A stretch of 64,000 nt of DNA from Alphaproteobacteria bacterium (GTDB taxonomy: Bacteria; Pseudomonadota; Alphaproteobacteria; Caulobacterales; Maricaulaceae), in assembly GCA_024742735.1 (NCBI GenBank), contig JANSXV010000001.1:186001-250000 (forward strand), written 5' to 3'. Shown here in pieces: positions 55,401 to 59,287 of the stretch. Each line of letters begins with the position of its first letter. Position 1 is the first letter of the stretch. The position numbers and the translations under genes were made by a program. The notes beneath the pieces were generated by a model that saw only the letters and a program-made list of their open reading frames with translations, made no database searches and had not been told where the DNA came from.

Positions 55401-55929
55401 GGGCCTGCTGGGAGGTCAGGGCATCGGGTTTGACCAGCTCGACGGCCGTTTCGTCTGGCAGGACAGCACGCTGGAGATGCGTGACGGCCGCGTCGTCGGC
55501 CCGGCGCTGGGCGTGACCTGGACCGGGATCGTCGACTTTGAAGATCCGCGCATCGAGGTGGACGGCACGATCCTGCCTTCTTACGGCGTGAACTCGGTTC
55601 TGGGCTCGCTTCCGGTTTTCGGCGAACTGTTCACCGGGCGACAGGGCGAGGGCGTCATCGGCGTGACCTTCACCGCATCCGGCCCGTTCGATCAGACCCG
55701 TGTGACCGCCAATCCGCTCTCGGCCCTGGCGCCGGGCGTCTTCCGGCGCATGTTTGAAGGCACGTCGGCCGAACGCGAGCTCGAAGCGCTCGAGGCGCGC
55801 CGGCGTGAACTGCAGCCTGGACCGGACGCGGTCGATGACCCCGACGCTCCAAAACCCAATGAGGATGCGCCCGCCAACGCGGAGCTGGAGCCTGAAGGCG
55901 ACGGGCCGCCGCCGGACGAGGAAGGATGA
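52429..55929 (+). CDS. Large AsmA-like / DUF3971 protein (YhdP-like envelope lipid-transport candidate)
   Basis: The 1166-residue protein has one N-terminal transmembrane helix (about 6-30) and over 1,000 residues of beta-rich periplasmic repeats. The segments LPSARAELEGRIALSQTDAG split as LPSARAELEG and the C-terminal LDGRFVWQDSTLEMRDGRV, IEVDGTILPSYGVNSVLG and PVFGELFTG match the conserved end of DUF3971/YhdP proteins. The acidic Pro-rich tail is low-complexity. YhdP and its relatives TamB and YdbH bridge the periplasm and move phospholipids to the outer membrane. The stop overlaps the anmK start (ATGA). Confidence 0.88.
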   Translation: MRRVARLAVLYVLEALAALLALAIFGGAALLWRLAEGPLDAEAFRPAATEALLSAVDADIASIGSLEVSFDPAAAALVVTALDVSAARAGGEVVVSAPRVETALALDLLMTGRAAPVRITASGGSFTLLRAVDGRLYAGLGGPDAVRGQNSGEGPGGGRLGAFASGLDSQGSGPLSRLREIDLRDVDLRVIDEASDLSLIFQDARAQLTLDETGLAADLSGGLITGAGLSPVALRLEAGRDLASVFVDLRIRDLVPATAAPLRGAFARLAAVDAPMALDLVLDASAEQGLRTALVELRAEPGTLRAGGRSFALNAAQLSVVLDADAGALDINKVRIESDLIDLDITGRIFDLSRFDGALPTQAAYEIESAAGAFDWPGLFPESLVWNAASIAGRLDSAAPRIEFDRLDIDLPSARAELEGRIALSQTDAGLLPDIQLTGPIRGMLTKADILRHWPVDFALGARDWVRDSILAGDLSNARLDLNIPVSALAARALEDEHLNLSFAFSDADVRYMSTMTPLTGLSGEAVLRGNSLSLTGRDGAIGDLQIDTIFVEAPRLNPKGAPARFGGTGRGPVQAVLGLLAQPPLNLDDNYGIDPSAFEGEGTMSFEISRPMLRSVPPEDLGYSASGRFESVSAPSGFEGVRLQNGVVEIEADEQGLTADGVADLAGARTQIQWRETFGLGDDADSSQVTLSTLMTARGLDQLGLPLRRFLDGAVGVEGVVTGRGFDFRTVSLALDLEQAAVALPADLWEKAPGEPGAAAFEAEFPDEGGVALRSLSVDAAALTLRADAEIAADGRLAAANVQTLDIPGRMDLAFTADRPEGLDGVLRLQLTGDYLDAGELFSIGAPGAGLAINAPVALEAAIARVLVRDVGFTGVGLTARLGPDGLEQASLSARTQDSEAPVELSFAPEPDAPGGPRRLRVETGDAGAVLTALAGYDNAAGGNLRIDAMAPPAGGEGPIEGELIADAFVLERMPLLARVLAAGSLEGLAGLLGGQGIGFDQLDGRFVWQDSTLEMRDGRVVGPALGVTWTGIVDFEDPRIEVDGTILPSYGVNSVLGSLPVFGELFTGRQGEGVIGVTFTASGPFDQTRVTANPLSALAPGVFRRMFEGTSAERELEALEARRRELQPGPDAVDDPDAPKPNEDAPANAELEPEGDGPPPDEEG

Positions 55930-57047
55930 GCGCCATGCTGTGCGCCGGACTGATGAGCGGCACCTCGCTTGACGGGGTGGACGCCGCGCTGATCGAGACT
56001 GACGGCGAGCGAGTCCTGCGCTTCGGGCCGGGTGCGGAGACCGCCTACACCAGAGAGGAGCGCGCCGTGCTGCAGCGCGCCGTGGACGCCGCGCTCGCCT
56101 GGCGTTTCGACGGGCCGGAGCCTGAGGTATTCGCCGAGGCCGAGGCGGTTCTGACCGAGACCCATGCCCGCGCCATCGGCGCGCTGTGCGAGAAGGCCGG
56201 AATCGCCTCGGCGCAGCTCGACCTGGTCGGGTTCCACGGTCAGACCGTCATCCACATCCCGCCCGAAGGCGATCAGAGCGGCCGCACGCGCCAGCTTGGC
56301 GATGGCGAGGCCTTGGCGAACCGGCTCGGTTGCGCCGTGGCGTTCGACTTCCGAACCGCCGACATGGGCGCCGGCGGGCAGGGCGCGCCGCTCGCCCCGG
56401 CCTGGCACCGGGCGCTGGTGGAGACCTCAGGCCTTGAAACGCCCATCGGCGTTCTGAATATCGGCGGCGTGGCGAACCTGACCCTGATCGGAAGCACCGG
56501 CGAGCTGACCGCCTTCGACACCGGACCGGGCAACGGCCTCATCGACGCCTGGGTGGCGGAAAAGACTGGCGGGGTGATGGACACGGACGGGGCGCTCAGT
56601 GCGCGCGGACGGATCCTGGAAGCCGGGCTCGCAGAGCTTCTCTCTCATCCCCATTTCGCCAAGATGGGCCCGAAATCTCTGGACCGCTGGGACTTCTCTC
56701 TAGACCCCGCGCGCAACCTGACCATCGAAGACGGCGCCGCAACGCTGGCCGAATTCACCGCGCGCACCGTCGCCATGGGGCTCGACGGCGCGCCGGAACG
56801 GCCGTCCCGGCTGATCGTCTGCGGCGGCGGTCGCAAGAACAAGGACCTCATGGCCCGCATCGCGCGGGCCTGCGCCCTGCCGCTGGTGACAGCCGAGGCC
56901 GTGGGCTGGCGCGGTGATCTGATCGAAGCCGAAGCCTTCGCCTTCCTCGCCGCCCGCACGGCGAAGGGCCTGCCCATCAGCTGGCCGGGCACGACCGGCG
57001 TGAAGCAGGCGCTGAGCGGGGGGCGGGTGGTCTCAAAACAATTTTGA
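55926..57047 (+). CDS. anmK: Anhydro-N-acetylmuramic acid kinase
   Basis: AnmK cleaves and phosphorylates 1,6-anhydroMurNAc from recycled peptidoglycan, giving MurNAc-6-phosphate. The 373-residue protein starts MSAMLCAGLMSGTSLDGVDA, the ASKHA phosphate-binding motif. It continues with VGFHGQTV, FDTGPGNGLIDAW, LIVCGGGRKN and EAEAFAFLAAR. Length is normal. It is translationally coupled to the AsmA-like gene. MurQ and the other recycling genes are not in the window. Just after the stop the base composition changes sharply. Confidence 0.95.
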   Translation: MSAMLCAGLMSGTSLDGVDAALIETDGERVLRFGPGAETAYTREERAVLQRAVDAALAWRFDGPEPEVFAEAEAVLTETHARAIGALCEKAGIASAQLDLVGFHGQTVIHIPPEGDQSGRTRQLGDGEALANRLGCAVAFDFRTADMGAGGQGAPLAPAWHRALVETSGLETPIGVLNIGGVANLTLIGSTGELTAFDTGPGNGLIDAWVAEKTGGVMDTDGALSARGRILEAGLAELLSHPHFAKMGPKSLDRWDFSLDPARNLTIEDGAATLAEFTARTVAMGLDGAPERPSRLIVCGGGRKNKDLMARIARACALPLVTAEAVGWRGDLIEAEAFAFLAARTAKGLPISWPGTTGVKQALSGGRVVSKQF

Positions 57048-57106
57048 AATGCAACCCGTTTTCCGAGCATGGGAATCAGCTGAGAGTTGCATCCGTATGT
57101 GTCTAA

Positions 57107-57478
57107 AGGTATTTAGAATACGAGTATGTAGGTAAAGTAGACGAGTTAAGAGTTCTCGCTACGCGGGACGGTGTTGCCAGTTTAGCAATCCATTCGAAGG
57201 TGCACGAGCTTAATCGCGCAGACTGGCGATTTTCGCAACACATCAATGTTTATGAACCTGCAGATATTAAAGAAGAAATAAAAGAAAAGATTTTCAAGTA
57301 TTTATATTATATGGGATTGGAGTATGGAGTCTTTGATTTTATAATGGACAGAGGTGGGGACATTGTCTTTTTGGAATGCAACTCCGACGGTCAATGGCTT
57401 GGTTATGCGCATAAGGCTGGCTGCGAAGACGATTTCGTTGGTCTTTTTGCATCGATGGTTCGCTCTATGCATATTTAG
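57107..57478 (+). pseudogene. C-terminal remnant of an ATP-grasp peptide ligase (graspetide/MvdD-type)
   Basis: The frame is open from a TAA at 57104 to the TAG at 57476. It encodes about 123 residues corresponding to the last third of an ATP-grasp ligase: EYVGKVDELRVLATRDGV, AIHSKVHELNRADWR, GLEYGVFDFIMDRGGD and VFLECNSDGQW. The pattern of ELRV, DWR, D-F and FLExNxxGQW is that of ATP-grasp enzymes that install ester or amide cross-links in graspetides (microviridin type). The N-terminal two thirds, including the ATP-binding lysines, are missing, and no full start is seen (a GTG at 57200 is internal). Codon use is A+T-rich compared with its neighbours, indicating transfer followed by decay. 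Confidence 0.7.
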
Positions 57479-58574
57479 CGTATTATCTTTAATTTCATGT
57501 AGGGCATGCGATGTTCAAGGTCAGGCGGTGTTTTCCGGCAGTGCCATTGCTCAAGCCGCAGAGCATATTCGCGCCTACGGGCCCAAATTCATTGTTTCCA
57601 ATGAGGCGCATTCAGACGGCGTGACGCGTTTTATTTCGGCCTGCTTTTATAGCGAGTTGACCGAGCTCCTACATGTGCCGATGTTAGCGGCGGAGACTCT
57701 GCGAGCGGCTGAAAGCATTGAACCGCATCCTTATGATCATACAAGGATACAAGGCTACTATATTTCAAGCCCGCATTTCGATGATCTTTTCCACGTTGCT
57801 GGTCAAAGTGCAGCGACGCTCCAGGGCTATGATCGGGTAGGGCCTGCGACGGTGGACCGGCGGTCCCTGGCCGAGGCGGGCTATCATCCCTCAAGGTGGA
57901 ATATTCGCGATCGATCAAGCGCCATGTTTCTCCTTGCCGCCCTGGATCGACAGGAATTGGACGGCGCGGTGTTCGTCCATGTCGGACCCGGCCATGCCGA
58001 CCGCGAGTTCCACACGCGCAATGGCGGTCTCACCACCGGCTTGGCCGGTCACCTGCAAGACCTGTCAGGCGCGCGAGTTGTCTCGATCGACAACGCGCTC
58101 TCGGAACTCTCCGATTTCTGGACCGACAAATTCTTCCCGTGCCCTTCGCATGTGGACTTCGAGGTGGTGTCGATAGTGGTTCAAGTGCGCGCCAATGTCG
58201 TTCATTGCATCCTTAAGTCAGATTTCAAACCGCATCGGCCGATCCATGACATTAATGTCGTGGATCGACCCGCCGCACGCAGCAACGGTTTCGTCGCGCC
58301 TGAAGGTTGGATTTGCAATCACCGCACCGTCTTTTCGGGGCCGATCCCCGAGGCGCTGGCCGACAGCGCCGCTTTGCGTGTGACGGTGATGCAGCGTGAC
58401 GGCGTGGGGCGGTATGTCCAGGGATGGCGAGAGCATGTTGAAAGGCCGCTGCCGGCACAGGTCAGCCTCTATCCGCTCGCGACCGATGAAATGACAGTCA
58501 TCTGGGAAGCCCTCGATGAGGACGGCCAGGTCGCCAACCGGATAACTGATGAGGTGACTTCATCTCGCCCCTGA
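57405..58574 (+). CDS. Secreted ChaN/EreA-superfamily-like protein of unknown function
   Basis: From ATG 57405 the 389-residue protein has a basic n-region (MRIRLAAK), a hydrophobic stretch ending FSVLSLISC (possible lipobox), then a domain with FIVSNEAHSDGVTRF, PMLAAETLRAAE, GYYISSPHFDDL and FVHVGPGHADREFH. The order of E-x-H, Ala-Glu-Thr, and G-H-A resembles the erythromycin-esterase/ChaN/TIKI superfamily of metal-dependent hydrolases or haem binders; no close family is recognised. The start overlaps the ATP-grasp remnant by 74 bp and is uncertain. The first 300 bp are A+T-rich, the remainder matches the host. Confidence 0.55.
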   Translation: MRIRLAAKTISLVFLHRWFALCIFSVLSLISCRACDVQGQAVFSGSAIAQAAEHIRAYGPKFIVSNEAHSDGVTRFISACFYSELTELLHVPMLAAETLRAAESIEPHPYDHTRIQGYYISSPHFDDLFHVAGQSAATLQGYDRVGPATVDRRSLAEAGYHPSRWNIRDRSSAMFLLAALDRQELDGAVFVHVGPGHADREFHTRNGGLTTGLAGHLQDLSGARVVSIDNALSELSDFWTDKFFPCPSHVDFEVVSIVVQVRANVVHCILKSDFKPHRPIHDINVVDRPAARSNGFVAPEGWICNHRTVFSGPIPEALADSAALRVTVMQRDGVGRYVQGWREHVERPLPAQVSLYPLATDEMTVIWEALDEDGQVANRITDEVTSSRP

Positions 58575-58603
58575 GGCGGGTTGCGAACCTCGGCAATCCG
58601 CCC

Positions 58604-59287
58604 CTAGCGCCGTGACCCCGCCGGCTGCTCGCGGCGCTCCACGACGACCTGGGGGATGCGCTTGTCGAGATAGGCCTTCGCGGAAGCCTGCAGCTGTTCC
58701 ACATGGTTGGAGAACAGGTGACCGGCGCCGGGGATGATGTCGGTGCTGATCGTGATGCCCTTCTGGGTGCGCACCTTGCTCATGGCGCGCTCCATCTCGT
58801 CATGGGGGACGATGGCGTCGGAATCGCCATGGACGATGAGGCCTGAGGCCGGGCAGGGCGCCAGGAAGGTGAAGTCGTACATGTTCGTCGGCGGCGCCAC
58901 CGCGACGAAGCCTGCGATCTCCGGCCGTCGCATGAGCAGCTGCATGGCGATCCACGCGCCGAAGGAGTGACCGGCCACCCAGCAGAACTGTGCGTTGGGA
59001 TTGTGCGCCTGGGCCCAGTCCAGCGCCGTGGCGGCGTCGGACAGTTCGCCCAGACCCTGGTCATAGGTTCCCTGGCTGCGGCCCACGCCCCGGAAATTGA
59101 AGCGCAGGACCGAGAAGCCGCGCTCCTTATAATCGTCATACATCATGACGTTGACCGGCGCTTCCATATGGCCGCCGCCCTTGGGGTGGGCGTGCAGGAC
59201 CAGCGCGATCGGCGCGGTCGGGTCCTTGGCGGGGCTGTACTTGCCTTCAAGACGGCCTGCGGGGCCGGGAATGATCACGTCGGGCAT
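58604..59287 (-). CDS. Alpha/beta hydrolase (serine hydrolase fold)
   Basis: The 227-residue cytoplasmic protein has the nucleophile elbow GHSFGAW (Ser108), the acid residue in HGDSDAIVP (Asp157) and the catalytic His190 in PGAGHLF, plus LHAHPKGGG and FNFRGVGRSQGTYD. This matches a conserved proteobacterial family near dienelactone hydrolases with unassigned substrate. It is divergent from iscR across 225 bp, a gap that contains the iscR promoter. The 29 bp between its stop and the ChaN-like gene end carry nothing notable. Confidence 0.87.
   Translation of the reverse strand: MPDVIIPGPAGRLEGKYSPAKDPTAPIALVLHAHPKGGGHMEAPVNVMMYDDYKERGFSVLRFNFRGVGRSQGTYDQGLGELSDAATALDWAQAHNPNAQFCWVAGHSFGAWIAMQLLMRRPEIAGFVAVAPPTNMYDFTFLAPCPASGLIVHGDSDAIVPHDEMERAMSKVRTQKGITISTDIIPGAGHLFSNHVEQLQASAKAYLDKRIPQVVVERREQPAGSRR

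Follow-up and report, generated by a model that had tools for sequence, protein, structure and literature searches.

Proteins of the Tiki and Ere families have been reported beside graspetide ligases. According to the accessible text of Makarova et al. (2022, PMC8939145), an Ere-like protein ('cluster 575'), for which resistance or modification was suggested, is encoded in two near-identical gammaproteobacterial graspetide loci, and Tiki/TraB proteins occur in graspetide loci of ATP-grasp branch 2; all graspetides characterised by then were protease inhibitors. The Tiki and Ere families were proposed to share a hydrolytic mechanism, and the authors of PMC6254334, in its accessible text, were undecided for their own enzyme.

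The locus described here lies in a 64,000-nt stretch of alphaproteobacterial DNA (the window), and, like the loci of PMC8939145, places a probable Tiki/Ere-superfamily gene next to a graspetide ligase. As far as the accessible description of those gammaproteobacterial loci goes, it differs from them in being alphaproteobacterial, in the overlap between the start of the second gene (the partner) and the end of the ligase, and in the partner having been left after loss of the ligase. When compared with the graspetide clusters of the MvdC/MvdD/MdnB/MdnC ligases, the ligase sequence in the window matches the C-terminal third of those enzymes; among its relatives there are precursor-like ORFs, full-length ligases, and, at some of the loci, transport genes of HlyD and C39 type (by eye), whereas the window has neither a precursor, nor the N-terminal two-thirds of the ligase, nor an adjacent transporter. 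With the PF04187 and PF05139 families the partner has in common a pattern of two histidines and two glutamates (2His/2Glu) and its spacing. A ChaN-like protein of the same genome passes PF04187, and a ligase-linked protein of genome G068 passes PF05139; the window partner, in contrast, matches neither model, carries N-E-x-H in place of G-E-x-H, and has a lipobox and a beta-rich C-terminal part. The association itself is already reported in gammaproteobacteria (PMC8939145, accessible text). Literature searches combining graspetides with alphaproteobacteria, and erythromycin esterase with RiPP and self-resistance, found no report, and, as far as these searches show, the alphaproteobacterial loci, the gene overlap, the variety of Tiki subfamilies (several within one order) that accompany ligases, and the recurrence of the scar are new.

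An insertion at the anmK junction

Directly after anmK (55926-57047, plus strand; placed from the ORF list and by comparison with congener ends), the GC content falls from ~0.70 in the gene to 0.43 at 57000-57600, and returns to 0.60-0.65 at 58200-58800, which bears out the low-GC patch described in the earlier note. The last codons of anmK read SKQF here, unlike the ends compared in 12 congeners, and the junction was therefore placed at ~57035-57047. A spacer (57048-57106, plus strand), ending in an in-frame TAG (57104-57106), leads into the ligase remnant and the partner gene, and an alpha/beta hydrolase gene (named by eye; 58604-59287, minus strand) forms the right flank.

The junction was compared between the window's genome and 14 more of the genus, and anmK was found in 14 of these 15 (G108 gave none). 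In 7 of the 14 others, no more than ~100 bp separate anmK from the convergent hydrolase gene, compared with ~1.56 kb in the window and ~0.86 kb in G044; the hydrolase gene was not in the anmK flank examined (1.5 kb; only 620 bp in G072) in G034, G062, G072, G103, and G118. Since anmK and the hydrolase gene are adjacent in seven of the 14 other genomes, the patch is an insertion between the two convergent genes, and the comparison with related genomes proposed in the earlier note thus revealed an empty site. Beyond one 48-bp stretch in G062, the 14 other genomes yielded no DNA like the patch, and no plasmid match was found. The contents of the junction vary among congeners: by eye, methylase- or restriction-like ORFs were seen in G034 and G118, flagellin-like ORFs in G062, a 131-aa ORF in G044, transmembrane-type ORFs with duplicated anmK fragments in G103, and a CRISPR-type array in G072. 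The anmK site therefore takes insertions repeatedly, and the anmK-hydrolase junction looks like a hotspot for accessory genes.

Several of these contents were located more closely. The array of G072, beyond anmK on contig C3 (L048 25-264), consists of four repeat copies of 36-42 bp at a 66-bp spacing; the methylase/restriction-like ORFs (by eye) lie at L047 3279-6077 in G034 and at L049 338-3036 in G118. Fragments of both anmK and the hydrolase gene are duplicated near the intact anmK of G103 (L046 9611-10351, and L044/L045), where one ORF is a chimera of the two.

Ligase remnant and partner protein

A frame encoding the C-terminal third of a graspetide-type ATP-grasp ligase (57107-57478, plus strand) starts ~60 bp after anmK, with ~200 N-terminal residues missing. 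It is open from 57107, right behind the TAG, up to its stop codon (57476-57478), and its 123 codons exceed the 92-aa GTG ORF of the ORF list. The remnant matched TIGR04187 at model positions 202-292 of 312 (E 2.9e-19), as well as other RiPP ATP-grasp models (MvdC, 1.2e-12; MvdD, 2.4e-12; grasp-with-spasm, 2.9e-8), with RimK at 0.073, so that RiPP-maturase models ranked above other ATP-grasp families. Only the ends of the RiPP models were matched, at scores far below the curated whole-protein cut-offs, as those of a fragment must be. Of the solved graspetide ligases, 7m4s (AMdnB) was matched at 2.2e-8 and 5ig8 at 3.2e-7; a Pfam search with the remnant gave no match. In a profile of full-length relatives, the remnant occupies positions 210-322 of 334. 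The HMM search suggested earlier (TIGR04187, MvdC, and MvdD being matched), together with the two structures, confirmed the reading of this fragment as the end of a graspetide-type enzyme. A complete ATP-grasp ligase of the MvdC/MvdD/GRASP type was not found at the window locus, where only positions 202-292 of 312 are covered, and a pattern scan of the window within 2.5 kb of the remnant found no precursor peptide. The patch is a remnant and not a working graspetide cluster, and it cannot make a peptide.

If the partner starts at ATG 57405, its gene (57405-58574, plus strand) overlaps the remnant by 74 bp (57405-57478, plus strand), in agreement with the overlap of about that length given in the earlier note; an alternative TTG start at 57447 would shorten both the signal peptide and the overlap. 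The gene encodes a complete protein of 389 residues, a probable lipoprotein with a lipobox L29-I30-S31-C32 (read by eye) and a beta-rich C-terminal part. E67-A68-H69 (57603-57611) would form the first half of the 2His/2Glu pattern, followed by E97 (57693-57695) and by H197 of a G-x-x-H motif (57993-57995), all on the plus strand, with residue roles taken from a relative (PMC6254334, accessible text). The distances H69-E97 and H69-H197 are 28 and 128 residues, equal to the spacing of 28 and 128 between the 2His/2Glu catalytic residues of a Tiki-family peptidase in the same source.

The E-x-H and GHA motifs of the earlier note are both present (57603-57611 and 57990-57998), and the E and H of the former and the G and H of G-x-x-H are unvarying in 17 aligned rows, window included; the A of GHA, however, varies in these rows. 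Across the 17 N-E-x-H rows, N56, E57, H59, R65, E87, Y132, R158, G184, H187, and D272 are unvarying, in an alignment numbering ten below that of the 389-aa protein, and the spacing ranges from 26 to 28 for H-to-E and from 118 to 132 for H-to-H, with 28 and 128 in the window. In an hhalign comparison of the N-E-x-H group with a ChaN-like group, the motifs were aligned (75%, E 2.5e-5). The partner thus probably belongs to the Tiki/ChaN/Ere superfamily, on the evidence of motif, spacing, and more distant relatives, much as its likeness to Tiki, ChaN, and EreA had been noted.

Direct searches were less informative. Searches of Pfam, NCBIfam, and PDB sequences gave the window partner no superfamily match, Pfam likewise gave none for its nearest relative (in G103), and PDB sequence searches with the partner and with the profiles of both groups gave no superfamily member. 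L020a reached PF04187 at E 0.0024, below the gathering score, while L022, the ChaN-like protein of the window's own genome, scored 38 bits (gathering score 27.7). Structure models of the partner were poor (pLDDT 46.9 at full length, 52.0 for the core); fold searches with these poor models listed no Tiki-superfamily entry among 50 PDB rows in either search, and the top Foldseek rows (FolD and FN3 domains; universal stress proteins and others) had E-values of 0.0065 or worse. A single-protein scan of genome contigs with the partner gave no relative, and a search of the genome contigs with alignment A5 gave one locus only, that of Euryhalocaulis caribicus (Maricaulaceae), which is the G003 locus discussed below. 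One promoter-like site was found against 1.1 expected, none being above chance, and no clear ribosome-binding site was seen by eye, so the partner gene may be silent. A 34-bp imperfect palindrome (58237-58270), 88% matching to its own reverse complement, lies inside this gene.

Related loci were reached from both genes. The partner protein and the ligase fragment were used in separate searches, each blind to the other; each search gave 5 of 119 family genomes, own included, and in G103 and G003 the matches of the two were neighbours. On the minus strand of G103 (L019), a precursor-like ORF, which shows a VAGA leader end but no start codon in frame, precedes a ligase interrupted by two stops (one TGA, one TAA); the lipoprotein gene that comes next is intact and shares 56 bp with the ligase frame. 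The G003 locus, in 12 kb, holds two ligases and two E-x-H proteins, together with, by eye, HlyD and a C39 peptidase transporter; a transposase-like ORF separates the second ligase from the second E-x-H gene, and the pattern scan gave a precursor-like ORF there as well. Contig C24 of the window's own genome carries a precursor-like ORF, an intact 340-aa ligase, and a secreted ChaN-like protein above the PF04187 gathering score, whose gene, with ATG 6793 of L022 as its start, overlaps the ligase by 59 bp, and with a later GTG not at all. The ligase and a GEMHG lipoprotein abut in G168, the E-x-H gene is divergent from the ligase in G208, and in G044, at another site, the end of an upstream gene is followed by a ligase tail only and then by a whole ChaN-like gene of uncertain start. 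Since G103 has the same pair, with a broken ligase, behind a precursor-like ORF, and since C24 in the own genome is an intact precursor-ligase-ChaN locus, the patch is the scar of a natural-product (graspetide) locus, the first of the two origins that the earlier note had offered.

The precursor pattern scan covered 20 regions, with one hit in 50 kb of control; it gave precursor-like ORFs at other loci besides those of G103, G003, and C24, and one hit each in L020, L027, L104, L109, L110, L113, and L114 was judged spurious. For two sets of ligases, of eight and ten, the best models were RiPP-maturase models, with L157 alone passing a curated cut-off. Other proteins were seen in graspetide loci. 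On contig C19 of the own genome, a 193-aa secreted protein (L023 5817-6398) overlaps the end of another intact graspetide-type ligase, and it matches Imm71 weakly (E 0.013). DUF6624-type proteins were found at L020 11423-11884 (3.7e-15, above the gathering score) and at L107 7407-8402 (6.8e-6, just below it). L112 and L113 (G192, G228) are alike in having a graspetide-type ligase, a second ATP-grasp-like ORF, and a large protein (by eye), and no Tiki gene was seen at these two loci.

Two other readings of the patch were weighed against that of a scar. The short ligase ORF could be a functional stand-alone C-terminal protein that was kept twice, in the window and in G044, as might be suggested by the presence in one genus of two short copies with a Tiki-superfamily gene directly downstream of each, and by the overlap of the genes in the window (in G044 only if the second gene starts at an upstream ATG). 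The two copies, however, begin at different model positions (210 and 257) and sit at different sites, the N-terminal and central parts of the ligase are absent, and the tail's survival in the window is accounted for by the gene overlap. Moreover, an open frame of 318-484 codons was seen in 21 of the 25 ligase matches, and shorter ones in the window (123 codons), in G044 (126), in G759 (141, where the contig ends), and in G103 (277, including two stops); a conserved short ORF, which by the earlier note would have refuted the remnant, was rejected on this count, and the fragment stands as a remnant, a stand-alone function being very unlikely. The second reading, raised by the earlier note, was that of a mosaic gene, in which a foreign 5′ part was joined to a resident 3′ part. 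The composition gradient on which it was based is real, GC rising along the partner gene, and the middle of the C-terminal part (residues ~235-300) is the least conserved; but the gradient crosses one conserved domain, the core (residues 40-230) spanning the composition boundary and matching the G103 protein with a Z of 22. The last 90 residues also match that protein (Z 4.3; 0 of 500 shuffles), the whole tail from 235 to 389 doing so more weakly (Z 2.6; 5 of 500 shuffles), and BLASTP aligned the core only. The empty site in 7 of the 14 other genus genomes holds no resident gene and leaves no room for one, which makes one foreign gene the simpler reading, and matching DNA in the 14 is limited to the 48 bp mentioned above. 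The domain across the boundary, the match of the last 90 residues, and the empty site led to rejection of the mosaic gene, which we hold to be the least credible of the readings considered.

Linkage of graspetide-type ligases with Tiki-superfamily genes

The frequency of the pairing was assessed in 21 graspetide-type ligase loci from 16 genomes of the order, with flanks of mostly ~6 kb (one side of G022 C54 was shorter), a locus being counted as linked if a Tiki-superfamily gene lay within 5 kb. The 16 genomes contain 17 Tiki-type genes by two profiles (9 + 8). Eight of the 21 loci were linked (the window, C24 of the own genome, G103, G044, G003 twice, G168, and G208), compared with 0.13 expected (P ~1e-12, or ~3e-11 without the window). 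The ChaN-like profile was built from linked proteins, and that part of the count is not blind; the blind pair of searches gave two linked loci against 0.03 expected (P 5e-4). Chance neighbourhood was rejected on the contrast of 8/21 with 0.13. Three candidate cases were left out of the counts: G304 (L115, E 6e-4) was dropped from the sample as RimK-type by eye, the ligases of L117 and L118 (510 and 515 aa), near stand-alone E-x-H genes, were likewise judged RimK-type by eye, and in G408 (L135), of another order, a ChaN-like ORF lies ~2.6 kb from the ligase with genes between.

A wider draw, with ligase matches in 19 of 398 genomes, added four loci, of which two are linked: those of G722 and the second locus of G068 are linked, that of G693 is not, and the G759 ligase lies at a contig end, with nothing seen on the side covered. 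The partner at the second G068 locus matches PF05139, erythromycin esterase, with 33 bits (cut-off 26.4); this Ere protein (L157) was seen by eye and missed by the profiles and the pattern scan, so that the linked counts are lower bounds. Its gene, predicted to encode a lipoprotein (L157 7447-8715, contig C14), lies beside a ligase of grasp-with-spasm type, with a C39 transporter seen by eye. Outside the order, no adjacent Tiki gene was found by profile in five class-sample genomes (6 of 337 with the own genome), the flanks being short in three of them.

Members of the N-E-x-H group were matched in 29 of 299 genomes of the order, but only 5 of 36 match rows (four proteins) have a ligase match nearby. 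A 20-row tree, which includes neither G722 nor G068, places the eight linked proteins in three groups without unlinked members: window, G103, and the first G003 protein (support 87/91), the second G003 protein and G208 (81/83), and three ChaN-like proteins (99/99), the support being modest for two of the three groups and several branches long. The ligase is broken in three of the eight linked loci and in none of the 13 unlinked ones (p 0.042, a small post hoc contrast that stands at ~0.06, by hand, with the later loci), and the partner ORF is open in all three.

Origin and proposed role of the partner

The history that we consider most plausible, at about an even chance, is that the patch is what remains of an inserted graspetide cluster, with a partner that served as a link-opening hydrolase for self-protection. 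The ancestral insert would have comprised a precursor peptide, an ATP-grasp ligase, and a secreted Tiki/Ere-like hydrolase. A deletion from the anmK side would then have taken away the precursor together with the N-terminal two-thirds of the ligase, the ligase tail being kept along with the whole partner gene because the partner starts within the end of the ligase. In the intact system, the ligase would form the cross-links in the precursor, the product would be exported, and the lipoprotein would be placed at the envelope; anchored in the membrane, the partner would open side-chain ester (or amide) links in the peptide by hydrolysis, much as erythromycin esterase opens the macrolide lactone. 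That an Ere/Tiki-type hydrolase occurs beside an enzyme that forms side-chain esters and amides points to these links as its likely target. The partner would thereby have protected the producer, and, kept alone, would be an orphan immunity gene. From the analysis we infer the course of the deletion, the hydrolase activity, its substrate, and retention by selection, and the immunity role from the association with the ligase combined with survival after ligase loss.

The same scar might instead have left a maturation enzyme, either a leader peptidase or a modifying hydrolase, whose intact ORF reflects recent decay, and the association would be accounted for just as well by such a role. There are peptidases among the Tiki-family enzymes (PMC6254334, accessible text), the accessible text of PMC8939145 suggests leader cleavage or further maturation for the Tiki/TraB proteins and lists 'additional modification' as one option for the Ere-like ones, and the remnant frame in the window is still open, as a recent event predicts; the truncation may indeed be recent, in which case the intact partner need not be under selection. 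Leader removal is, however, performed by C39-type transporters in some graspetide systems (PMC10885120, accessible text), and the linked loci of G003, G208, and G722 encode C39 peptidase transporters (by eye). That the partner is open where the ligase is broken, in all three decayed linked loci, fits self-protection better than maturation, although the number of loci is small and the age of the loss could also account for it; maturation we regard as possible but doubtful. It is improbable that the partner serves the envelope in general, or haem uptake as a ChaN-like protein, and has come to lie beside graspetide genes by chance: PF04187 is named after ChaN, and N-E-x-H members away from ligases are common in the order (29/299 genomes), yet 8 of 21 loci are linked against 0.13 expected, two of the four later loci are linked, several subfamilies are involved with genes that overlap or abut, and the linked proteins form groups of their own.

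If the partner is a link-opening immunity enzyme, graspetide producers would have a route to resistance that follows directly from the chemistry of their own peptide. It may tentatively be proposed, as one possibility for the family at large, that lipoproteins of the Tiki/Ere fold, recruited several times, are dedicated graspetide self-immunity hydrolases that open macrolactone or lactam links at the envelope. Loss of production would then leave a ligase tail with a whole immunity gene, as in the window and G044, or a broken ligase, as in G103, and what makes the scar recognisable would be that the start of the immunity gene falls within the end of the ligase. The C24 locus of the own genome and the G168 locus are intact ligase-Tiki pairs. 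If the proposal is true, a lineage that no longer produces the peptide but has kept the protection would be recognisable by its orphan Tiki gene behind a ligase tail.
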